From Paenibacillus xylanexedens (GTDB taxonomy: Bacteria; Bacillota; Bacilli; Paenibacillales; Paenibacillaceae): a stretch of 64,000 nt of DNA. Positions 35,651 through 46,483 of this stretch are shown here, piece by piece. The DNA is taken from contig NZ_CP018620.1 of the NCBI RefSeq assembly GCF_001908275.1, positions 2,604,001 through 2,668,000 of the forward strand, in the 5' to 3' direction. The notes under the pieces were generated by a model. It was not told where the DNA came from, made no database searches, and saw only the letters and a program-made list of their open reading frames with translations. Made by a program: the position numbers and the translations under genes. Each line of letters opens with the position of its first letter. The stretch's first letter is position 1.

Positions 35651-36766
35651 ATGAACGATGATACTACAACGGAAAAGAAGATCACCATAACTAAAGGTTC
35701 TACTCATTCATTGCATATTCGTTGTCCCTACAACCTTGTAGATATTCAGCGCATTCGCCAGATTACGGGGCAGAAAGTGGGAACCCAAACAGAAAATGTG
35801 GATCATACCCTACACTATTGCGGCCATCCAGGAGTTTACGAGCCAGTTTGATCCGGATGAAGTTCAGATTACCCCGGAGTTGTGGGTTGACAATGAAGAA
35901 CTGCAGCAATGGAAAGCTAATATGGGAAACAACCAGTGGAGCAAAGAACTCTTACAGAAGGCACTAAAGTTACGAGGATATAGTCGCAAAACAATCAAAG
36001 CGTATTGTAATCAGGTTGAGCGTTTTCTGAGTAGCCTTCCCCTTAAAAATACGGAGTTCACTACATCCAATGTTCAGAGATATTGCTTGGGTTTGCTTGA
36101 GTGGGGATCTCCCATTCAAGCGTGAATCAGACCATTAGTGCTATCCGTTTCTATTGCAAACATGTGCTCCATCACCCTACTGAAATCCAGTATATTCGTC
36201 CCAAGAAGCAGACCAAGCTTCCACAAGTGATATCCGAAAACGAAGTTGCACAATTACTCAAATCCGTAACCATCCCAAACATAAGGCCATATTGTTTCTG
36301 ACCTATTCTTCCGGGCTTCGTGTAGGTGAAGTTGTGCGTCTGCGTTGCAGCGATCTGGATATTGAAAGGCAGACACTCATTGTGCGACAGGGAAAGGGTC
36401 AAAAGGATCGGAGAACGCTTCTTTCAAGCCTTGCCTGGGATATGGTGCAGAAATACATAGATGAATACAGACCCAATCGTTGGCTGTTTCCGGGGCAATC
36501 TTCTGATCGACATCTTACTGAGCGGAGCGTACAGAAGGTTTTTGAAGAAGCTAGATAAAGCCGCAGGAATTGTGAAAAAGGTAAGTATTCATGCGCTGAG
36601 ACACTCCTTCGACACTCATTTGCTGGAAAACGGGACAGACCTGCGCTACATTCAGGAGTTACTTGGTCATACGAGTGCACGTACAACTCAGCGATATACG
36701 CATGTTAGCACCAAAAATATCCAGCTTATTCAAAGCACGCTGGATCGGATGGTTTTGGGAGATTGA
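35651..36766 (+). pseudogene. Tyrosine recombinase at head of cassette array, four frameshifts
   Basis: ATG 35651 follows AAAGGAG. The protein is readable end to end if four single-base shifts are corrected: near 35777 (extra G in AAAGTGGG), 36105, 36277 and 36551. The N-terminus has a GQKWEPKQKMWIIPYTI motif, then the core-binding domain (LRGYSRKTIKAYCNQVERFL) and the catalytic domain: Arg in SSGLRVGEV, Lys in GKGQKDR, HALRH, LGH and RYTHV (Tyr). All six catalytic positions survive. The segment between patch III and HxxR is short ([11 protein letters not shown]), so the extra domain of IntI integrases is absent; it is Xer/phage-like. It points toward the array, unlike most intI genes. Confidence 0.85.
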
Positions 36767-36823
36767 ATACTTCGATAAATCTCCCTTTTTCACCAAATTC
36801 TTCTTCGCAAATACTACACCATA

Positions 36824-36891
36824 GGTTATCATATACGTAGTTCACATATCATACAGGATGTGTGGTATTTACGAAGTACATAAATTAGATG
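36824..36891 (+). promoter_or_regulatory. Putative attI and first cassette junction
   Basis: The sequence after the recombinase stop is gene-free. A 21-base block at 36824-36844 is identical at 29001-29021 in the relic head. The first cassette appears to begin after the G at 36891, in GTTATCT (36891-36897), because the R'' box at the end of that cassette is AGATAAC (37668-37674), its exact complement. The attachment site thus lies in 36767-36891. Confidence 0.6.
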
Positions 36892-36934
36892 TTATCTGCA
36901 ATTAGGGCTAATTCATAAAAGAAAGAGGTATTTA

Positions 36935-37633
36935 ATGAGGGATTCATTTTCTGCAAGAACAATAAAAGTATTAGCTGATAGAGCAGGCTACAGATGTTCT
37001 AATCCTGCTTGTCGGAGAGCTACTACAAAGGCTCATCCAACTAATGAAGAACTATCAGTTAACTTAGGTATAGCAGCACATATCACAGCAGCAAGCCCAA
37101 ACGGTCCAAGATTTAATAGTGATTTAACAACAATTGAAAGAAAGAGTGTGACTAATGGTATTTGGGTATGTACTAAATGCTCTAAAGAAATTGATTCAGC
37201 AGAATCAGCATATTCTGTGGAAACATTAAAAGGCTGGAAAAAGGATGTAGAATCAGTAACTGCAAGAAACGCCGCATCGACTCCCGATGAAATTGCAATT
37301 ATCGTATCTGAAATTGAAGAAAGCATAAGTAAAATTTTTATGTTCCTAGAAACATGGCAAATAAATGATCCTACTTCAACTTATGATTTTCGCTCTATGG
37401 ATTTTGAAGAATCATCGCGTCTAATAATTACATTTTCAATTTTAAGAAGGAAGTCATATGCACAGGAGATTGAGCCGGATTTAGTAAGAATAAGAATGAA
37501 ATCAAAAACAATATTAGGTAATCTAGAATTACTTGAACATTATACTTGGGAAGATTCAGGTATAAATTATATAGCAATGAGAGAAATGGCAAATAGCCTT
37601 AATGAATTAAGAGAATTATTCTTACTAAGATAG
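36935..37633 (+). CDS. Cassette 1: HNH endonuclease-like protein
   Basis: 232 residues. The N-terminal zinc/HNH module reads YRCSNPACRRATTKAHPTN, IAAHITAASPNGPRF (His), then NGIWVCTKCSKEIDSAESAY and VETLKGWKK; this matches the HNH family whose members end in NGIWLCQNCAKLID. The last His of the motif is not obvious (TKCSKEID), so activity is uncertain. The C-terminal ~110 residues are helical and unassigned. Fusions of this type occur in anti-phage systems; defence is inference. Preceded by GAGG; first gene after the putative attI. Confidence 0.68.
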   Translation: MRDSFSARTIKVLADRAGYRCSNPACRRATTKAHPTNEELSVNLGIAAHITAASPNGPRFNSDLTTIERKSVTNGIWVCTKCSKEIDSAESAYSVETLKGWKKDVESVTARNAASTPDEIAIIVSEIEESISKIFMFLETWQINDPTSTYDFRSMDFEESSRLIITFSILRRKSYAQEIEPDLVRIRMKSKTILGNLELLEHYTWEDSGINYIAMREMANSLNELRELFLLR

Positions 37634-37667
37634 AAAATTTGAATAGTTCAAAAGAAGCCCTAACAGC

Positions 37668-37763
37668 AGATAACATAATATTCACGCTGCGAACATTCAT
37701 CCTTGGTCTGGTATTCGCCAGACACTCGACATACGTCGAGTCGTGAATACAGGAACGCTAGGC
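37668..37763 (+). repeat. attC 1
   Basis: R'' AGATAAC (37668-37674), L''/L' stem TATTCACG...CGTGAATA, inner stems TCTGG/CCAGA and CTCGACATACGTCGAG, R' GCTAGGC (37757-37763; T replaced by C). R'' complements TTATCT at the start of cassette 1. 96 bases. Confidence 0.85.
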
Positions 37764-37791
37764 GAAATACTCAAATGAAAGAGGAGAGAAT

Positions 37792-38529
37792 ATGCAGTTC
37801 AACAATAAATTCAAGTATGTATGGTGGGTTATTGTAATAGGTTTAGGAATCTATATGATATATCTTCGTTATGATGAGATAATTAGCTCAAGTGTAGGCG
37901 CATTTGATATCTTTTTAGTGGCTATAATCGCAGCTTTAATGTTAATTCCATTCTTCACAGAGATGGATTTTCTAGGAATAAAATTAAAACAAGAAATTGT
38001 CGCAATGAAAACTGAAGTAAAAGAAGAGATTTCAGAAGTACGGGGGATGTTAAAAAACTCTATTGATATAAACAACAATAACAGGTTCAATCCAAGTATT
38101 TACGTAGGGAGTCCATCTTCTCCACCTCCTGATAATCAGTTGAACAATATTGAAAAATCTATTAAAAACACATTGGATCAGATTTTAGCGGCGAATAGTG
38201 TAGATAGACAAACCAATGAGAGCTTGGAAGTTCCAGAAGAAAATAAACTTTTATTTGCAGCGCGTTTTAACATTGAGAAAGAATTAAGGAGAATATGGAA
38301 AGAAAATTTTTATAAAACTAATGAGGAGAGGTCTAGACCTATACCAATAAACATAATGATTAATGACTTAATTAAGCAGGATATACTCCCTCCATCTTTT
38401 AAAAATGTTATTAGAGAAATTTATTCAGTTTGTTCTCCAGCTATACATGGCGAAGAACCAACACAAAAACAAGTAGATTTTATTAAAGATGTAGCTCAAG
38501 ATGTTATTAACACATTAAAAGTAATTTAG
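37792..38529 (+). CDS. Cassette 2: membrane protein with C-terminal HEPN-like/DUF4145-like domain
   Basis: 245 residues: two membrane segments (about 11-26 and 38-56), a coiled-coil-like Lys/Glu region (KLKQEIVAMKTEVKEEISEVRG), a Pro/Asn-rich linker and a C-terminal helical domain (NIEKELRRIW...IREIYSVCSPAIHGEEPTQKQ). The last part resembles the DUF4145/HEPN-like helical fold often found in defence proteins, but the RxxxxH motif is not clear. GGAGAGAAT precedes ATG. Membrane-anchored, catalytic side in the cytoplasm. Confidence 0.6.
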   Translation: MQFNNKFKYVWWVIVIGLGIYMIYLRYDEIISSSVGAFDIFLVAIIAALMLIPFFTEMDFLGIKLKQEIVAMKTEVKEEISEVRGMLKNSIDINNNNRFNPSIYVGSPSSPPPDNQLNNIEKSIKNTLDQILAANSVDRQTNESLEVPEENKLLFAARFNIEKELRRIWKENFYKTNEERSRPIPINIMINDLIKQDILPPSFKNVIREIYSVCSPAIHGEEPTQKQVDFIKDVAQDVINTLKVI

Positions 38530-38547
38530 TGAAGCTTTGAGTACTTC

Positions 38548-38625
38548 GCCTAACAATATATTCACGCCGCGGACATTCGTCCTTAGTTCGGTACACGCCG
38601 GGTCGTGAATACAGAAACGTTAGGC
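38548..38625 (+). repeat. attC 2
   Basis: R'' GCCTAAC (38548-38554), stem TATTCACG/CGTGAATA, R' GTTAGGC (38619-38625). 78 bases, the shortest complete copy. Its R'' complements (T)TAGGC at the start of cassette 2, allowing for the C in attC 1. Confidence 0.88.
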
Positions 38626-38640
38626 GAAATTCACTAAATA

Positions 38641-38835
38641 ATGAAATTCATAAAAGGAACAATCTCTTTTGAAGAACGATTTTTATTACATCTAAATGAG
38701 AATATGGATGGTAATATGTGATGGTGTCCGAAAAATAAATTTAATGAAAATGAAGTAGCTAAGTCTCTTGAGGAAATTAGAGAACTTGAATATTGGCAAG
38801 CCCATTTCCTGAGGGAGATGGAATTAATTTTCTAA
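38641..38835 (+). pseudogene. Cassette 3, upstream small gene with in-frame TGA
   Basis: ATG 38641 lies 16 bases past the attC 2 R' box. The frame reads MKFIKGTISFEERFLLHL and 26 codons to TGA 38719, then continues in the same frame with similar character (CPKNKFNENEVAKSLEEI, EYWQAHFLREMELIF) to TAA 38835. One substitution (TGG to TGA is possible) explains it. Family unknown. It shares the cassette with the SEC-C gene. Confidence 0.5.
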
Positions 38836-38864
38836 TGATGGTTACATAAAAGGAGATTGAACAT

Positions 38865-39998
38865 ATGATGTTAATTGAAAAGTTCCCTAGAAATGTAAGA
38901 CTCACTATAGGTCCGTATGAACAATGTCCATGCGGTTCTAAAAAAAGTTTCAAATTTTGCTGTAAACCAAAATCGACCGAACATAAACACAATTGGAAGG
39001 AATACCGTAAACATCCTGATAAGCGCAAAAAGTATGAATATGTAAAGAATTGGAATGATACTGCGTTTGAAATATGCCTAGCATTTGATCACGAAGAATG
39101 TAGAGGTAATATTAAAAATGCTCACTCAATACAAAAAAAACGAATATTGAATAGAATCAGTCGAGATGGACACCTCTATCAATTTATACCAGATCATGTG
39201 GGAGATATAGTTTTAGCTAAGTTTGATCGTGTAAGCATCAATAAGGCCAGTACATTTCAAGGATTTTGCGATTTCCACGATAATAAATTATTTCTTCCAA
39301 TTGAAGCTTCAGATTATTGTAATGAAGCAAGACAAAATTTCTTGTTCTCTTTTAGGCCTCTAGCTCTTGAATGTCATAATAAAATAAGGGACTTAACTTT
39401 TAGAATGAATATTTTTAGTGAGCGCCCTGATCTGACGATAAATGAAGCAATGGTTTATGATTATCGAACCGCACAACTAAATGAAAGAGAATTCAAGAAA
39501 GAATATGAAGTTTTTAAGAAAGATTATAGTGAGAAGAATTTTAATAATATTCGCACCTTTTATTTGAAGTTAGATTTTGAAGTGAATTTTGCAACAAGTG
39601 GGGCTTTTTCAGTAGAATTTGATATGAATGGGCAGCAAATAAATGAAAATCAAATGCTTAGCGAAATTCAAGAAATTAAGCTTATTTATTTAACAATCTA
39701 TCCCCTAGAAAATAGTACAAATATAATTCTTTCATATCATTTAAGAAATGATAAATCGTACAATAGACTTTTCGAACAACTAGAAAATGCCTCACAGACA
39801 CAAATTTTAAAATACTTAAATAAGATAGTGATTAATGGAACCGAAAATATATATTTTAGTCAGAACTTTATAGAAAACTTGAAAGAAGCAGAAAAAGATT
39901 CTTTGTTAATAAGTTTTCAAGCAAGTTTAAAACCGTTATTAGCTAAGAAGTTATACGAAGAAAACAACGACTACAGATTTGATCTTTTCACAACCTAA
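38865..39998 (+). CDS. Cassette 3: SEC-C motif protein
   Basis: 377 residues. The zinc-binding SEC-C motif CPCGSKKSFKFCC is at residues 21-33, a module that binds zinc and often appears at termini of proteins in defence, regulation or nucleic-acid work. A long domain follows with EDHEE-like charged segments and an H-bearing region (YQFIPDHVGDIVLAKFD; FCDFHDNKLFLPIE; ARQNFLFSFRPLALECHNK), unassigned. AAGGAG lies nine bases before ATG. AT-rich. Confidence 0.68.
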   Translation: MMLIEKFPRNVRLTIGPYEQCPCGSKKSFKFCCKPKSTEHKHNWKEYRKHPDKRKKYEYVKNWNDTAFEICLAFDHEECRGNIKNAHSIQKKRILNRISRDGHLYQFIPDHVGDIVLAKFDRVSINKASTFQGFCDFHDNKLFLPIEASDYCNEARQNFLFSFRPLALECHNKIRDLTFRMNIFSERPDLTINEAMVYDYRTAQLNEREFKKEYEVFKKDYSEKNFNNIRTFYLKLDFEVNFATSGAFSVEFDMNGQQINENQMLSEIQEIKLIYLTIYPLENSTNIILSYHLRNDKSYNRLFEQLENASQTQILKYLNKIVINGTENIYFSQNFIENLKEAEKDSLLISFQASLKPLLAKKLYEENNDYRFDLFTT

Positions 39999-40131
39999 AG
40001 TAGCGGTAGCAGTAATTAATACCTTTATCACGCTTGAATTGAACTTTAACGTCAGTTACTCCGAGCATTAATAATATTAAATTGGCCCAAGTATTTGACC
40101 TTTCAAGATTAATCAGGAAGATTTTAACTTC

Positions 40132-40246
40132 GCCTAACATAATATTCTAGCTGCGGCTCCGATGGAGCCTTGGTCTGGGATGGATTTCTAAGAGGGATTT
40201 CAGCAGACAACCCCTTCGGGGGTTCATGAATAGAGGAACGTTAGAT
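40132..40246 (+). repeat. attC 3 (long type)
   Basis: R'' GCCTAAC (40132-40138), L boxes TATTC/ATGAATA, inner stems GGCTCC/GGAGCC and CCCC/GGGG, shared block GGATTTCAGCAGACA, R' GTTAGAT (40240-40246). R'' complements TTAGGC, the start of cassette 3. 115 bases. The next gene's ATG overlaps R'. Confidence 0.85.
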
Positions 40247-41140
40247 GAAATCATTTGCAAAAACATTAACGAAAGTGAGAGCAAAGATGACGAAAAAGAA
40301 TGTTGATTATACTAATGCAATGAGCTTAATAGAATTATCAGATGAGGTTTACGAATTATTTGATAGTCGAATGTCCTTGATGAACCTGAAAACGAATAAA
40401 TATAGTAGTATCATTATTTCTTTGATGTACATTATGGAAAATACCAGCCAAGCTATTAGATATTTAATTAAGAATAGTTTTGTAATTCCTGCTGTTACAT
40501 TGGCGAGAGTAAGATTGGAACAAGCTATTGTCTTTTCGTATCTTATTCATGCAGAAGAATCAAATGGATTTCAGCCATTCATTGCTCACATTCCAATTAG
40601 TGAATATTAAAATCTTCTTTAGCAATAACTGAGCAGAAGTTAGCAAAAAATCTTACAGAACTAGATTTAGAAACTTTAAAGCTAGCAGCTAAATCAATGC
40701 AAGCAAGATTTTCCTCTGAGTCTGAAGGGGAGAGATTTGACAAGAAATGGACAAAACTTGATTTATTATCAATGGCAAAGGCAAGAGACCACATGACAAT
40801 GGATTTAGATGAAGTGCTAAGTTATAGACTAGAAATAGATTATAAATCGCTTTATAAAGAAGCTAGTTCACTTATACATTTCGACGGTAATTCCATCTTG
40901 ACTTATACAAATTATTACGTTTCTCGTAACGAAGAACATTTAATAATTGGATCGAAATCAACATGGGCACCGATGGCTGCTGCATTTAACGTCCATTACG
41001 ATATTATTAATATCTCTGAAACAGCGAAGATTCTAGACATTAATATTAATGAAGAATTACATGAGGTCTACAATAAGTATAAGTTACAAATAGAAAAGAT
41101 TTATTTGGGTGAATCAGAGAAGGCAGATGACGTCACCTAA
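40245..41140 (+). pseudogene. Cassette 4: DUF5677-like protein, frameshifted
   Basis: ATG 40245 lies inside the R' box. The frame reads a helical N-terminus (SLIELSDEVYELFDSRMSL, LIKNSFVIPAVTLARVRLEQ) and stops at 40610. A one-base change near 40608 restores the remainder (LTELDLETLKLAAKSMQ, SLIHFDGNSILTY) to TAA 41140. The ARVRLEQA...F and H-containing helices resemble DUF5677, a helical family of unknown function common in integron and defence regions. The stop lies within the R'' box of attC 4. Confidence 0.65.
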
Positions 41141-41311
41141 CACAAAATCCACGCATCTGGCATTCGCCCGTGGCTCGGCACGAAGTTAGAAGTAGGATCA
41201 GAGGGGCATTTCAGTAGCAGAGAAGCGGAATCAGCCAGACACATTCTCACCACCTCAAGCCCCTTACAGGACTTAAGATGGTGCGGCGTCGTGAATACGA
41301 TAACGTTAGAT
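41135..41311 (+). repeat. attC 4 (long type)
   Basis: R'' ACCTAAC (41135-41141), L boxes ATCCACG / CGTGAATA, long variable middle with CACCACCT...-type stem, R' GTTAGAT (41305-41311). 177 bases, the longest copy. R'' matches TTAGAT of cassette 4 except for one position. Confidence 0.82.
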
Positions 41312-41356
41312 GAAATCAGCCAATGCTTGACTAAACACAATAGTTCCGGATGAAAT

Positions 41357-41590
41357 ATGGAAAGAAAATATCGTCCCTTACAAAAATATTCGGATCCAGC
41401 AATAAGAGATAATGGCGTTCTTGGACTAGCCTATATAGCTAGAACCAAAGAAAATCTGGAAAAACACAAGGTGAAACCAATAATATTAAAAGAGCTTAAA
41501 CAAAATCATCAAAATGAAGGGCGAGTAAAAGACGCAATTGATGATGTAAATCTATATATGAAATGGGAAATTGGAATATCAAAGAAATAA
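41357..41590 (+). CDS. Cassette 5: small protein of unknown function
   Basis: 77 residues, basic and helical (KYRPLQKYSDPAIRDNGV, IARTKENLEKHKVKPIILKE). No recognisable ribosome site close to ATG and no domain known. It is the only gene in this cassette, which supports it being real. Confidence 0.55.
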   Translation: MERKYRPLQKYSDPAIRDNGVLGLAYIARTKENLEKHKVKPIILKELKQNHQNEGRVKDAIDDVNLYMKWEIGISKK

Positions 41591-41640
41591 TACTGAAGTA
41601 AAGACTCATTTTGATAGTATATCGAAGAAGGGCTGACATC

Positions 41641-41798
41641 ATCTAACATCATATCCACGCATCGGAGCCTGACGGCTCCTCGGTTCGCCCGAAGGAGTTT
41701 GTCAGGAGAGTGGAATCAGGCGGACACATCCCCACCGACTTAAAGCTGCTGGCGCAGCCTTAAGTCGGTGGGACGTCGTGGATACAGGAACGTTAGAT
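41641..41798 (+). repeat. attC 5 (long type)
   Basis: R'' ATCTAAC (41641-41647), L boxes TATCCACG/CGTGGATA, inner stems GGAGCC/GGCTCC and CCCACCGACTTAA/TTAAGTCGGTGGG, R' GTTAGAT (41792-41798). L boxes covary (CC opposite GG). R'' exactly complements TTAGAT at the start of cassette 5. 158 bases. Confidence 0.87.
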
Positions 41799-41831
41799 GA
41801 AAGATAAGTAAAAACAAGAGAGGTTATTTAC

Positions 41832-42230
41832 ATGGGAGTAGCCTATACATTAGATTGCAAACAGTGCTCTTATAATCATAAAGTTTTTTTAGGAATAGGG
41901 TTTAATTATATAAATTTGAAAACTATTTTAGAGTGGTATGAACAAGAAGAAGGTCGACAACAAATCAAAAAATATATGAACGAAGAGGATATACATTTTG
42001 AATGTTATGACGGATTATACGTTTGCGAACAATGTGGGTATTTACTGAATCGTACATTTCTACATATAATCTCAAAAGATTATTTCTATATAAACAGTTA
42101 CGACTGTCCACTTTGTCATGTACAAATGCCTCAAAAACCTTTGTTAGATGAAATAGAAGAAATTTCTTTAAAGTGTCCTGACTGTGAGGAAGAAAAATTA
42201 GAAATACAATCATATATGGACTGGGATTAA
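41832..42230 (+). CDS. Cassette 6: zinc-ribbon protein
   Basis: 132 residues with four CxxC pairs (CKQC at 9-12, CEQC near 64, CPLC near 94, CPDC near 116), which can hold two zinc ions. The N-terminus MGVAYTLDCKQCSY with a FLGIGFNY segment resembles small proteins annotated only as CPXCG-type. GAGGTTATTTAC precedes ATG. No enzyme motif; a protein- or nucleic-acid-binding adaptor is possible. Confidence 0.65.
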   Translation: MGVAYTLDCKQCSYNHKVFLGIGFNYINLKTILEWYEQEEGRQQIKKYMNEEDIHFECYDGLYVCEQCGYLLNRTFLHIISKDYFYINSYDCPLCHVQMPQKPLLDEIEEISLKCPDCEEEKLEIQSYMDWD

Positions 42231-42298
42231 ACTCTTTTATGTCAATCATAAAATTGATTAGTGAAATTTGAAGGTCACTCAATGAAGACTTATCCATC

Positions 42299-42394
42299 AT
42301 CTAACATAATATTTACGCTACGGGCATACGCCCTTGATCCGGCATTCGCCGGACACTCGACATACGTCGAGTCGTGAATACAGAGACGTTATCG
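42299..42394 (+). repeat. attC 6
   Basis: R'' ATCTAAC (42299-42305), stem TATTTACG/CGTGAATA, inner stems GGGC/GCCC, CCGGCATTCGCCGG and CTCGACATACGTCGAG, R' GTTATCG (42388-42394). R'' exactly complements TTAGAT of cassette 6. 96 bases. Confidence 0.9.
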
Positions 42395-42445
42395 GAATTT
42401 CTCATAAAATATACTGAATAAAAAAATGTACAGGAGGTGTAAAGA

Positions 42446-43222
42446 ATGTTCAGCATGTATGAAATATCCCAGGAAGAACATGAGATGATTATAAGAGCAA
42501 ACGATCAATTTGGATTAATCTTTGAAGTATGTTTAGACGCAATAGAGTTATCTTGGACATTTACTAAAAATTATCAGATCAGTGCCTGGATATTTGCTGG
42601 TTTTTTATCTCAAACCAATAATTCGTTGTATTTAGCGATTTTATCATTAATTAGAAGGCATACTGTTCAAACAAGCTTTAATTTACGTTTATCAATTGAG
42701 TCTGCAGTATTGGCCTGTTATGCATTATATAATCCTAAAATCGATAGTTTTGCTATCAAAAATGATCATGGTTCAATGGTAGAGAGATCAGGAGTGAAAT
42801 CAAAAGCAAATAAATGGATTGAAAATAATTATAAGGACATGTCTGATACAATTCATGTGTATAAAAAGCAAATTAATAGTAAATTCGCGCATTCTAGTAT
42901 CTTAAGTGCATTTGGAAATTTTGAATTGAGTGAAGAACACTATCAAGGAGTTTCTTGGATATTTGATAGAACTGAAGATAGAGACATTCATTTTCAACTA
43001 CTAAGTTTGGTTAACTTAGTTCTTATACAGGTAGAAATGTTTTATAGAGTAATTAAAGACTATCCCATAGTGGAAATTGTTGATGACTTTACTTCCCGTT
43101 ATGAAAAGATAAATGGTACTGTGACTTTATTAAATGACTTTTATAAATTGATTGCTGAAGAACTTGCTAAAGGGGAAGTAGTTGAAATACCTATCTTACG
43201 TAAACTAAATGAAGAAATATGA
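42446..43222 (+). CDS. Cassette 7: helical DUF5677-like protein
   Basis: 258 residues, all helical. The segment LAILSLIRRHTVQTSFNLRLSIE and the following VLACYALYNPKI, then INSKFAHSSILSAF, fit the DUF5677/HEPN-like pattern of a buried Arg/Glu helix and a His-bearing helix (KFAH). AGGAGGTG lies seven bases before ATG. Function unknown; related to the broken cassette 4 gene and the gene at 58498. Confidence 0.62.
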   Translation: MFSMYEISQEEHEMIIRANDQFGLIFEVCLDAIELSWTFTKNYQISAWIFAGFLSQTNNSLYLAILSLIRRHTVQTSFNLRLSIESAVLACYALYNPKIDSFAIKNDHGSMVERSGVKSKANKWIENNYKDMSDTIHVYKKQINSKFAHSSILSAFGNFELSEEHYQGVSWIFDRTEDRDIHFQLLSLVNLVLIQVEMFYRVIKDYPIVEIVDDFTSRYEKINGTVTLLNDFYKLIAEELAKGEVVEIPILRKLNEEI

Positions 43223-43229
43223 GAACATC

Positions 43230-43351
43230 CGATAACATAATATTCAAGTAGCGGCTCCGTTGGAGCCTAAGTCTGCTGGAAGAATTTCGAGGAGGAATTT
43301 CAGCAGACACATCCGACTTAGTCGGACGTAATGAATATAGGAACGTTATGT
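43230..43351 (+). repeat. attC 7 (long type)
   Basis: R'' CGATAAC (43230-43236), L boxes TATTCA/TGAATA, inner stems GGCTCC/GGAGCC and TCCGACTTAGTCGGA, shared block AATTTCAGCAGACA, R' GTTATGT (43345-43351). R'' exactly complements TTATCG, the start of cassette 7. 122 bases. Confidence 0.9.
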
Positions 43352-43380
43352 GAAAAATTCTTATAAACAAGGAGGAAGAA

Positions 43381-44460
43381 ATGAAAAGAGAAATCATAGA
43401 TCAATATGAAAAATTAGCAGCCCCACCAAAAGATGCTGATGGAAATTGGTATAGACAAAGAGGAAGAGAACTAGAAGTTCTTGTTCAGAAACTTCTAGAT
43501 TTAGAAAAGCTTGAACCTAGAATGCGATATAGACCTGAAGGAGAAGAAATCGATGGTTCCTTTCTGTTAGGGGATAAGGTATATTTGCTTGAACTAAAGT
43601 GGCATAGTGTAGAACTTCCTGCATCATCTATATATCAATTTAAGGGGAAAGTAGATGGGAAGCTTTTAGGAACTATAGGTATTTTCATTTCATTATCAGG
43701 ATATAGCAAGGATGCTGTTGACGCACTGAGTCTAGGGAAAACTTTAAATGTTATTTTATTTGATAAAGAGGACTTTGAAGTTTGTGTAAAAGAAGAGTAT
43801 GGATTTAGAAAGGTACTAACTACTAAATTGAGACAGGCTGCTGAGGAAGGTATAGTTTTCTTCCCGTATAACTCAGTAAGTATACAAAATGATTTAAAGG
43901 AAACGATAGAGCCTACTCTACCTCAAGTATTAAGTTATCAATCTATTTCCGGAAGTATTGTGAGTGAAAATCAGATAAATAAGATTAATACCGACATAAT
44001 ATTAATATGCGAAGGCAATAGGGATAGAGAGATATTGTTAGGACTTATGAAAAAAATTATAAAAGATAAACCTATTAAACGAGTAACTATAGTTGTCGCC
44101 ATGGGAAAATATGTAATGCCTAAAGTTATTAATTCAGTAAGGTCACAGGTAGATTCTGATGCAGATATCTTAGTTATTGTTGATTCAGATGGTGAAATAG
44201 ATAAAACTATGAATTTCTTTATAGAAAAGGCACATTTAAAACCTAACAACATTATTATTACAGATCCTTATATTGAGACTTGGATATTTAATGAATTACC
44301 AGATAGAATATCAGACTATATGCAGCGAAATGCTCAGCGATCCAATCAAACTGTTGAACAATATATCAAAGGTATTGTTGATTCCATTAAAATTGATGAC
44401 TTAATCAAAAAAGATAATAGTTTTGAGAAATTCTATAATTCCATTGTGATCAAAAAATAG
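43381..44460 (+). CDS. Cassette 8: restriction-nuclease domain fused to TOPRIM-like domain
   Basis: 359 residues. The N-terminal part (1-130) has a PD-(D/E)XK core: Asp 58 in EIDGSF, then Glu 71 and Lys 73 in LLELKWHS, as in Mrr/NERD-like restriction domains. The C-terminal part (about 205-330) reads like a TOPRIM or DUF4435-type domain: ILICEGNRDREIL (Glu 211), VIVDSDGE (Asp 268, Asp 270) and DPYIETWIF. Nuclease plus TOPRIM resembles OLD-family and related anti-phage effectors, but I know no named family with this order. AAGGAGG precedes ATG 43381. Confidence 0.7.
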   Translation: MKREIIDQYEKLAAPPKDADGNWYRQRGRELEVLVQKLLDLEKLEPRMRYRPEGEEIDGSFLLGDKVYLLELKWHSVELPASSIYQFKGKVDGKLLGTIGIFISLSGYSKDAVDALSLGKTLNVILFDKEDFEVCVKEEYGFRKVLTTKLRQAAEEGIVFFPYNSVSIQNDLKETIEPTLPQVLSYQSISGSIVSENQINKINTDIILICEGNRDREILLGLMKKIIKDKPIKRVTIVVAMGKYVMPKVINSVRSQVDSDADILVIVDSDGEIDKTMNFFIEKAHLKPNNIIITDPYIETWIFNELPDRISDYMQRNAQRSNQTVEQYIKGIVDSIKIDDLIKKDNSFEKFYNSIVIKK

Positions 44461-44492
44461 TGCAATGTAGTTCAATGAAGAAAGAATACTTC

Positions 44493-44587
44493 ACATAACA
44501 TGATATTCACGTTGCGGATATTCGTCCTTGGTCCGGCATACGCCGGACACCAGCATATGCTGGGTCGTGAATACAGGAACGTTAGGC
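44493..44587 (+). repeat. attC 8
   Basis: R'' ACATAAC (44493-44499), stem TATTCACG/CGTGAATA, inner stems CCGGCATACGCCGG and CAGCATATGCTG, R' GTTAGGC (44581-44587). R'' exactly complements TTATGT of cassette 8. 95 bases. Confidence 0.9.
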
Positions 44588-44615
44588 GAAATTCAAATAA
44601 GGGAATGAATATTAA

Positions 44616-45191
44616 ATGAAATTAGATAGACTGAAAAATCTTTATATAGGAATGAAGAACAGTAAGATAGAACGGTACAAGATTCAATTTACATTCAATA
44701 ATGTATCATTTGATGTATTTTTCTTTATTGATGAGAATCCTTATCTTCTGGTATTTGGAGTAAAGGCGGTGAATTTTTATTTCGAAGTTAAAGTAAAACC
44801 TGGATTTAGTATAGATACATTTCTTCCTAAAGATATACATACAAGGTTAATGGCGATGCTAAATCTTAAGTACGATCCGAATAGCTCGTTTAAACTGAAT
44901 TATTTTTTTGAGGAATTCAACAAAAAAATCCCTCAAAAGGTAGTGCTGAGTAACCAACCAAAGTCGAATGAAGTTGGTTGCTTTCGAAAAAACGTAGAAG
45001 AGAATGATAAAGTGTATTTTCTTGGTTGGAGAGATAATCAGACTAGAAACGAAAATGTAAGTTTTAAAAACCTAATGAAAACAAAAGCGCTCCTTGGTAA
45101 TACAGCTTATGAAAGAAGTAGACAGAAGAATTTTAGTAGTAGATGGACGGAAGATATTGAATTGGCCCAAGAATTCTACCTTCCAGATTAA
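44616..45191 (+). CDS. Cassette 9: DUF6037-like protein
   Basis: 191 residues, soluble. LKNLYIGMKNSKIERYKIQF, VSFDVFFFIDENPYLLVFG and LNYFFEEFNKKIP resemble the DUF6037 pattern, a family of unknown function found in mobile regions; the match is from memory and partial. GGGAATG precedes ATG. No catalytic motif. Confidence 0.55.
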   Translation: MKLDRLKNLYIGMKNSKIERYKIQFTFNNVSFDVFFFIDENPYLLVFGVKAVNFYFEVKVKPGFSIDTFLPKDIHTRLMAMLNLKYDPNSSFKLNYFFEEFNKKIPQKVVLSNQPKSNEVGCFRKNVEENDKVYFLGWRDNQTRNENVSFKNLMKTKALLGNTAYERSRQKNFSSRWTEDIELAQEFYLPD

Positions 45192-45210
45192 TTAGAAAGA
45201 TTCGAACTTC

Positions 45211-45306
45211 ACCTAACATAATATTCACGCTGCGAGCATTCGCTCTTGGTCCGGCATTCGCCGAACACCCGACATGCGTCGGGTCGTGAATACGGGAACG
45301 TTATCC
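45211..45306 (+). repeat. attC 9
   Basis: R'' ACCTAAC (45211-45217), stem TATTCACG/CGTGAATA, inner stems GAGC/GCTC and CCCGACATGCGTCGGG, R' GTTATCC (45300-45306). R'' matches TTAGGC of cassette 9 apart from the last base. 96 bases. Confidence 0.88.
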
Positions 45307-45360
45307 GAAATACTCGATAAATCTAAAATAGACAAGATAAAGCATAAAGGAGGTTTTTTA

Positions 45361-46065
45361 ATGAAAGAAGTAATTATAAGGCATGGTGGAGATTATTTGC
45401 CAATTGACGATATTGACTTTTCAATAATAGCAAATGATCTTAGGTCTCTCCCATTCTATAGAGATGATTTATTTCTTGGAATGCAGGCAATGAATATTGG
45501 TATTATTGACCCTAACATTACTCAATTCGAGTCTGACTTATTAAAAACGTATTTTGAGAAAGAGAGAACACCATCTTATGAAGCAATGACTGTAGGAGCA
45601 TTCTCTCAAATGTGGATTTTCGCATTATATGAAGTTCTACGTATGTGGCGGGAACGAAAGTATGATTTTTCTAAACTATTCAAAAACGGTGGGATAGATT
45701 TAAAACTAAAATCACTTGCTGATAATGAAGATGAAATGAATATAACATCACATGCTCGAAGGAGACAATTGGAGAAATATCGAGATGAACTGTCTTTTAG
45801 GGATGAAGTTGAACATTGCTGGATTCAATTAGAACCAGTATATCGGTTGGTTGAATTATATAGAATGAATATGGCAAAACACGCGGCACCGGGCAAGAGC
45901 AATGCTATTCCAATGGCCCCCGGCTATGGGCGAATTAATATGCTTTGTGGCGCATTAGATTATGAGTTGCTTTTAGATAGAGATAGTTATGAATTGCTCA
46001 ATAGAAGAGATGTTGCAGATAATTTGAGAGAAGCTCTGTTAGTTATTAGAGCTAATAATAAATAA
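45361..46065 (+). CDS. Cassette 10: protein of unknown function
   Basis: 234 residues from ATG 45361, which follows AAGGAGG; the frame is open back into attC 9 but that part has no start signal. Helical, acidic, with IGAFSQMWIFALYEVLRMW-like hydrophobic helix and EVEHCWIQLEPVYRLVELYR. No domain recognised; may be another HEPN-like helical protein. Complete and well spaced. Confidence 0.65.
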   Translation: MKEVIIRHGGDYLPIDDIDFSIIANDLRSLPFYRDDLFLGMQAMNIGIIDPNITQFESDLLKTYFEKERTPSYEAMTVGAFSQMWIFALYEVLRMWRERKYDFSKLFKNGGIDLKLKSLADNEDEMNITSHARRRQLEKYRDELSFRDEVEHCWIQLEPVYRLVELYRMNMAKHAAPGKSNAIPMAPGYGRINMLCGALDYELLLDRDSYELLNRRDVADNLREALLVIRANNK

Positions 46066-46098
46066 AGTTCTGTAGATTAATCGAGAAGTTGAATACTT

Positions 46099-46140
46099 CG
46101 GATAACAAAATATTCACGCTGCGGGCCGTTTGGCCCTAGA
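46099..46140 (+). repeat. attC 10, truncated
   Basis: R'' GGATAAC (46099-46105), TATTCACG L'' box, GGGCC/GGCCC inner stem; then the match ends and the right half (L', R') is missing. R'' exactly complements TTATCC at the start of cassette 10, so the cassette was formerly intact. Confidence 0.82.
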
Positions 46141-46300
46141 TCATCCAGAAGTTAATACAAAGAAGGATAGAATAGGAAATGATGAAAAAAAATCTTGGTG
46201 TGAACATTAATGGGGAAACGAGTAAGAAGATATGTTTACAAGATTCGACATAAAACTAATTAAATGTTTTTATAAGCCATTCAATGAGGACAAAAAAATC
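46141..46300 (+). other. Cassette 11 remnant without an intact gene
   Basis: Only about 160 bases remain between the truncated attC 10 and attC 11. A tail-like frame (NTKKDRIGNDEKKSWCEH) ends at 46217, and a 23-codon ATG frame is also open; neither has support as a gene. This is a deletion scar that removed a cassette front and half an attC. Confidence 0.45.
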
Positions 46301-46394
46301 ACATAACATAATATTTGGGCTGAGGACATTCGTCCTGGGTCCGGCGTTCGCCTTATAAGCGACAGACGTTGGGTCGTGAATATTTATGTTAGGC
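46301..46394 (+). repeat. attC 11, degenerate middle
   Basis: R'' ACATAAC (46301-46307), left TATTTGGG instead of TATTCACG, inner GGACATTCGTCC, right CGTGAATA, R' GTTAGGC (46388-46394). Last recognised site; the cassette beyond it has no attC. Confidence 0.78.
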
Positions 46395-46483
46395 GAAATT
46401 ACATACGTGAGAACACTGAATTATGTCTAGTCTGTTTAAGTGTTATTTATAAACGTCAATTAAATTATTATGGAGGTTACAAT

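Follow-up and report, generated by a model that had tools for sequence, protein, structure and literature searches.

The locus and its array

The 64,000-nucleotide stretch of DNA analysed here (the window) spans C1:2604001-2668000 of the 7.1-Mb, two-contig genome of Paenibacillus xylanexedens, has a G+C content of 41.8%, and carries a series of genes alternating with attC-like repeats that resembles the cassette array of an integron, preceded by a broken gene for a tyrosine integrase. The features of this array are listed below, each putative cassette consisting of a gene and the attC downstream of it.

35724 to 36766, + strand: broken tyrosine integrase (HARP-like N-terminus and recombinase core), its pieces in different frames and co-oriented with the cassettes
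36790 to 36890, + strand: attI-like site, resembling the stretch behind intact integrases and ending at GTTA, the start of the first cassette
36891 to 37756, + strand: cassette 1, gene for an HNH-like protein (36935-37633) and attC (37662-37769); start/end complementarity 12/14
37757 to 38618, + strand: cassette 2, gene (37792-38529) and attC (38542-38631)
38619 to 40239, + strand: cassette 3, gene with a weak SEC-C match, E 0.07 (38865-39998), and attC (40126-40252)
40240 to 41304, + strand: cassette 4, DUF5677-like gene in two pieces (40245-40610 and 40697-41140) and attC (41129-41317)
41305 to 41791, + strand: cassette 5, small gene (41357-41590) and attC (41635-41804)
41792 to 42387, + strand: cassette 6, gene for a cysteine-rich protein (41832-42230) and attC (42293-42400)
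42388 to 43344, + strand: cassette 7, gene (42446-43222) and attC (43224-43357)
43345 to 44580, + strand: cassette 8, gene for an Mrr-like nuclease / TOPRIM-like protein (43381-44460) and attC (44487-44593)
44581 to 45299, + strand: cassette 9, DUF6037 gene (44616-45191, Pfam E 3e-23) and attC (45205-45312)
45300 to 46150, + strand: cassette 10, gene (about 45361-46065) and truncated attC (weak match at 46094-46234, 28.8 bits)
46295 to 46400, + strand: last full attC, 81.7 bits with covariance model R1

The repeat occurs eleven times between 37.66 and 46.40 kb, ten copies being full and one truncated, and always on the + strand; the initial annotation had proposed this number and a single orientation, and direct reading, regular-expression and repeat searches and the scores of R1 bear it out. 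Its statement that each repeat follows a gene holds for every copy except the last, directly before which an open reading frame (ORF) of at least 80 aa is absent, and which has apparently lost a cassette body of its own. The four boxes it named, R'', L'', L' and R', are all present, the L''/L' pair lying near TATTCACG/CGTGAATA, and the R cores are looser than the consensus it gave: strict GTTRRRY is found in 6/10 R' boxes (GTTA in nine, GCTA in copy 1) and strict RYYYAAC in 6/11 R'' boxes, with TAAC in all 11. The array seems to be decaying, since the DUF5677-like gene (40245-41140) is in two pieces and the attC whose R'' lies at about 46103 is truncated.

A conserved fold and a second array

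The covariance model R1 was built from 8 window copies and 6 copies of a second array, which match it by construction; the ten full window copies score 35.6-116.5 bits and the truncated copy 28.8 bits. When three or fewer mismatches were allowed, the pattern GTCGTGAATACAGGAACGTTA was matched at 23 forward positions of the 7.1-Mb genome and its reversed control at 1. At least one of the 23 is a chance match (C1:2119983, inside an HU gene), and others make up the second array at C1:3502492-3521646 (L032 and L033 among the loci compared), where R1 finds 17 sites at E values up to 0.1 and reading by eye about 19. Inspection by eye of the listed ORFs in the roughly 8 kb on either side of this second array revealed no integrase, and the integrase matches of the genome include none there. 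In Rfam, a search with 34-50 kb of the window found no relevant family.

Alignment and folding of the repeats give an L stem, TATTCACG/CGTGAATA, within which the short copies, similar to each other in sequence, form three small hairpins. The pairing is conserved by covariation: 81.9% of cells are paired across 14 copies, against 30-40% when the partners are slid, and 88.0% against 31-38% across 100 R1 matches, where 26/34 pairs vary on both sides; this larger alignment, mostly of copies from the genus and including one reverse-strand match and one cut-off copy, was fitted to R1, so the structure is favoured in it. Within a single repeat the R boxes are frequently unpaired (in 9 or 10 of the 14 copies at three columns), as would be expected if each came from a different cassette. 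Of 291 attC, 266 could be scored for their spacers, and in 226 of these the spacer between L' and R' exceeds that between R'' and L'' by exactly 3 nt; a mismatch at one L-stem pair occurs in 48/99, and either feature might act as extrahelical bases of the folded bottom strand.

The two ends of each unit are complementary

If the mobile unit runs from one GTT core to the next, the partner of the R'' box should be found at the start of its own unit, and this is what the comparison of unit ends gives. Across 25 units (10 of the window and 15 of the second array, three further second-array units being omitted as their R'' was not found), the start and end of the same unit are complementary at 240 of 350 positions, against a permutation mean of 131 and a maximum of 179 in 100,000 permutations. 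Cassette 10, with the end of its truncated site placed by eye, reaches 11/14. Between the R boxes on either side of a repeat, 5.15/14 positions agree on average, against 9.6/14 for the ends of one unit, and the match is no better than with R boxes taken from other units of the array. The same holds for 180 units at 20 loci (L032 and L033 adjoin), with 1889/2520 complementary positions against a mean of 1126 and a maximum of 1257 in 2000 within-array shuffles. Resolved by position in these 180 units, the complementarity covers the 9 bases 0-8, drops to 45% at position 9, fails at position 10 (2%), resumes over the 7 bases 11-17 (the last at 48%) and stops at 18. The R box and an outer arm thus match on either side of the gap at positions 9-10, so that each cassette has at its ends a two-part inverted repeat with a fixed mismatch between the parts.

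Predicted folding energies follow the same pattern. In 120 short-attC units drawn at random, the site formed by closing a unit into a circle has a mean of -32.4 kcal/mol, compared with -26.2 kcal/mol for the junction present in the array and -25.8 kcal/mol when the start of another unit is supplied (118 units). The closed site is better than the array junction by 6.2 kcal/mol on average, being the better of the two in 110/120 units and equal in 4/120. The longest ORF is co-oriented with the array in 244 of the 291 units examined.

Whole units are shared and copied

Shared units were sought among these 291 units, which come from 40 loci, with sharing defined as at least 85% identity over 85% of the length. 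Of 72 shared pairs, the preceding cassette is alike in 29, different in 25 and unknown in 18. Where it differs, the downstream attC is closer than the upstream attC in 22/25 pairs (means 87.6% and 60.2%), although these pairs are not statistically independent; the pairs within one array favour the downstream attC in 12/12 (seven of them sharing a single unit of L258), and the pairs between loci in 10/13 (means 80.3% and 64.1%). In pairs of at least 94% identity (16 left and 14 right boundaries), the GTT core is the point at which identity begins and ends. Copies within arrays point the same way: in L260, whose array is very uniform (25 attC over threshold in 19 kb), a 422-bp unit is present three times, letter for letter, near-identical units stand at separate places in L255 (99%) and L256 (body 100%), and two cassettes of L211 encode the same 131-aa protein. 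Whole gene-attC units therefore differ between genomes and are shared among them, as anticipated in the initial annotation for a cassette system, the comparison here being between species rather than strains. By these unit-level comparisons, the gene-attC units are cassettes that appear to be transferred whole. Two attC on the opposite strand lie within the otherwise + array of L263 (4339-4780), forming inverted cassettes.

These observations bear on the explanation that the repeats are REP/MITE-like palindromes (repetitive extragenic palindromes or miniature inverted-repeat transposable elements) spread by a transposase, with incidental gene spacing and with genes shuffled by homologous recombination. 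The repeats are indeed intergenic hairpins and the short ones are alike, but the complementarity joins the start and end of a gene-containing unit rather than the two ends of a repeat, shared units stop at the GTT of just one of the two sides of a repeat, and the arrays are regularly linked to an integrase and an attI-like site, as described below, so that we find this explanation hardly credible.

A tyrosine integrase that is not IntI

The initial annotation saw no recognisable IntI at the locus and overlooked the broken tyrosine integrase at 35724-36766. Three pieces of this gene (35796-36125, 36292-36558 and 36461-36766) match Pfam Phage_int_SAM_4 and Phage_integrase, and the intact 371-aa integrase of a relative aligns to 35724-36110 and 36253-36624, the last piece being 36461-36763. 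In relatives the integrase is intact (about 370 aa; 371 aa in L211), co-oriented with the array and directly before it. No intact copy of this integrase was found in the P. xylanexedens genome; both arrays of this genome are probably frozen, because the integrase is broken and an intact copy was not found.

The residues R, K, H, R, H and Y, which we take to be the catalytic ones, are invariant in 39 integrases. The N-terminus matches Pfam HARP (PF07443) in 24/35 members, mostly under its cut-off, and we refer to the proteins as HARP-type integrases; it seems to be a fused domain resembling those by which DNA of unusual shape is recognised. By its profile score and motifs, the integrase is not an IntI: it reaches 202.9 bits with TIGR02249 (IntI), under the cut-off of 265, and opposite residues 183-239 of IntI4 it has only residues 272-286, so the IntI-specific (I2) insert is lacking. 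LPxA[LI]xxKYP, presumably an IntI motif and seen in L248, occurs in 0/32 HARP-type and 0/2 Bacteroidota integrases and in 2/3 IntI rows (it is missing in L254). An identity with XerC or XerD was also considered and rejected, the scores being 199.3 with TIGR02224 (cut-off 335) and 195.9 with TIGR02225 (cut-off 330).

Behind the integrase, the stretch up to the first cassette is alike in the window and in 13/17 loci with an intact integrase, and in the resulting 14-locus alignment the similarity stops after GTTA; left out were L263 (unclear start, 11/16) and L258, L261 and L262, which looked divergent. About three direct motif repeats can be made out in it by eye. In the genus loci L211, L212, L214, L215 and L216 the distance from the integrase stop to the start of the first unit is 124-125 bp, and in L213 and L217, also of the genus, it is 98 bp; in the window, where the first unit begins at 36891, the stop at 36766 lies 125 bp before it. 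We consider this stretch a candidate attI-like site.

Linkage and distribution

Among the integrase loci of the genus, whether intact or broken, the 29 with the best scores include 26 that have attC within 1.5 kb, downstream and co-oriented (one of them weak), weaker opposite-strand matches at the same palindromes being disregarded, while attC are found in 0/7 loci of the other tyrosine recombinases of the P. xylanexedens genome. The initial annotation had suggested searching other Paenibacillus genomes for the repeat and had stressed how rarely such cassettes are reported in Firmicutes. R1 matches 74/75 genomes of the genus (E 1e-3), with at least 3 sites in 71, and 163/295 genomes of the family (E 1e-4), in 16 of the 19 sampled genera, so that for this system the supposed rarity does not hold. 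Across the phylum R1 matches 11/398 genomes, of which 4 belong to the genus and 7 have just one weak match, and a scan with an attC pattern gave 117 stretches, all from Paenibacillus, Saccharibacillus or Fontibacillus.

The integrase is found in 89/295 genomes of the family (E 1e-60), in 12/19 genera; attC are present as well in 83 of the 89, which corresponds to an odds ratio of 21.8 over the 295 genomes. In five other genera of the family, arrays lie behind the integrase in 10/10 fetched loci, and in other Bacillota families they are clear in 5/10. Over the phylum 36/398 genomes match the integrase (E 1e-45), P. xylanexedens through its pieces; outside the family, the match in 15 genomes begins at residue 19 or earlier and reaches the end of the protein, in some of them with internal stops. 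Other phylum-wide matches lack the N-terminal part and may be Xer-like. In four distant Bacillota loci (L266, L273, L274 and L279), the integrase match ends 165 to 896 bases from the array-side contig end, as if the assemblies had broken within a repeat array. In Bacteroidota, plasmids of Chryseobacterium and Rufibacter (L295, L296) encode related integrases, behind which stand small genes of the same orientation that have a few attC-like junctions.

The array of the window could alternatively be an ordinary cluster of attC sites lacking an integron integrase (CALIN), a classical remnant left by a genuine IntI that captured the array a single time and has since disappeared. No functional integrase accompanies the array of the window, and 6/10 of its R' and 6/11 of its R'' cores strictly follow the classical consensus; yet a single non-IntI integrase family fronts such arrays in the genus, the family and some other Bacillota, and the outer arm is common across the lineage. 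Moreover, IntI over the family cut-off occurs in only 2/398 Bacillota genomes, neither from the family of P. xylanexedens (7 sampled), in a search that did not take in the 75 genomes of the genus as a set. Unlike a CALIN, the window still has a broken integrase and an attI-like site adjoining its array, and relatives have the complete system. We regard a classical remnant as very unlikely. The initial annotation had offered a sedentary integron or a CALIN: the integron-like character stands, but a stray CALIN of a classical integron does not agree with the dedicated non-IntI recombinase next to the array.

Interpretation

Taken together, the window very probably carries a sedentary chromosomal cassette array of integron type, whose units would have been captured at the attI-like site by a tyrosine integrase with a HARP-like domain. 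In this reading the mobile cassette is a gene with its downstream attC, bounded and presumably cut at the GTTA core, and in the most likely mechanism one strand of the joined cassette ends would fold into a long hairpin with an outer arm of 7 bp, a 2-nt mismatch, an R arm of 9 bp, an asymmetric spacer, an L arm of about 8 bp and a branched tip. The HARP-like domain would read this folded single-stranded structure, replacing the I2 domain of IntI, and the recombinase core would join the folded site to a double-stranded attI or to another attC; the cassette genes may be expressed.

Several observations weigh against this interpretation. The choice of strand is unsupported, because in the three copies for which each strand was folded, the two are about equally stable. 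The longest ORF lies on the opposite strand in 40/291 units, and 7/291 have no ORF of at least 50 aa. Among the shared units, 3/25 pairs favour the upstream attC and one further pair is nearly even. In the 200 bp upstream of 51 integrases, matches to CGAACN4GTTCG, which we assume to be the LexA box consensus, are no better than in shuffles, a difference from classical integrons, with single candidates remaining (for example in L275, with 1 mismatch). The evidence comes from computed sequence comparisons between species, and circular cassettes were not seen. Behind the distant integrases, an array is unconfirmed in 5/10 loci; six integrase-positive genomes of the family have no whole-genome attC match, one of which (G122) has attC at its fetched locus; and 80 of the 163 attC-positive genomes of the family, P. 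xylanexedens included, have no integrase match at E 1e-60.

This last count would also suit the explanation that the host XerC/XerD moves the cassettes through folded sites and that the adjoining HARP-type integrase has another role; a folded phage site can be used by XerCD, according to PMC4792948. Against it stand the adjacency and co-orientation of the integrase, the attI-like site directly behind it and the co-occurrence of integrase and attC in the family, and we judge it extremely unlikely. Compared with XerC, XerD and archaeal XerA, the HARP-type integrase is under all three cut-offs, has an extra N-terminal domain and is accompanied by attC arrays.

The system that we favour, a cassette array served by the HARP-type integrase, shares with sedentary chromosomal integrons, such as those of Vibrio and Xanthomonas, its chromosomal location, the mostly co-oriented single-gene cassettes, the R''-L''-L'-R' architecture of attC, the GTTA crossover core, an attI-like site with direct repeats beside a tyrosine integrase and a cargo that is mostly of unknown function and in part defence-like. 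It differs in the HARP-like N-terminus and the lack of an I2 insert, and in that the integrase lies upstream of the array and reads in the same direction. The classical attC has four inverted repeats, an unpaired central spacer, extrahelical bases and a variable terminal structure, as described in PMC8946536. Distinctive of the sites here are an additional, outer arm, the third, which has a fixed mismatch and was set against classical attC at only two junctions, by eye, usually a 3-nt asymmetry of the spacer and often a three-hairpin tip. In the HARP proteins SMARCAL1 and T4 UvsW, HARP sits on a helicase, whereas here a HARP-like domain sits on a tyrosine recombinase; the N-terminus resembles that of UvsW weakly by fold.

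As for the cargo of the window, two cassette genes look defence-like by weak matches: the product of 36935-37633 in cassette 1 resembles the HNH-type N-terminal half of PADLOC PDC-M68A (E 3e-26), and that of 43381-44460 in cassette 8 combines an Mrr-like nuclease (Pfam Mrr_cat at 20.6 bits, under the cut-off of 21) with a TOPRIM-like half. The first piece of the gene in cassette 4 scores 26.2 bits with DUF5677, under the cut-off of 27.1.

Implications

The system works like an integron and is most fittingly classed as an integron lineage of its own, outside the IntI-defined family since its integrase falls below the IntI criterion. Among the titles and abstract openings listed from the open-access literature, including that on Paenibacillus, on Firmicutes/Bacillota and on HARP integrases, we found no account of it, the lists covering in two cases 20 of 149 and 10 of 667 entries; preprints and most subscription journals lie outside this scope, and an earlier description is possible. 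PMC9024848, on IntegronFinder 2.0, describes integrons in Firmicutes as extremely rare, with one complete integron (Limnochorda pilosa) and a few CALIN. The integron-like system found here may have been overlooked because its integrase is not IntI.

IntI reads the extrahelical bases with its added I2 domain, the origin of which is posed as a chicken-and-egg problem in PMC4792948, and the question raised there, whether attC or I2 came first, is touched by the finding of attC arrays without I2. Tentatively, and at somewhat less than an even chance in our estimate, the arrays may represent a second integron lineage as old as IntI or older, in which HARP and the bulged outer arm take the place of I2 and the extrahelical bases; if so, the origin of attC-like sites would not have to coincide with that of the I2 domain. 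The HARP-like fusion offers a testable idea for how a recombinase might recognise DNA shape. The arrays would, moreover, provide Gram-positive bacteria with a large reservoir of mobile cassettes, among them families of aminoglycoside enzymes, as in L211 (16827-18814), where cassette genes belong to the AadA_C and APH families.

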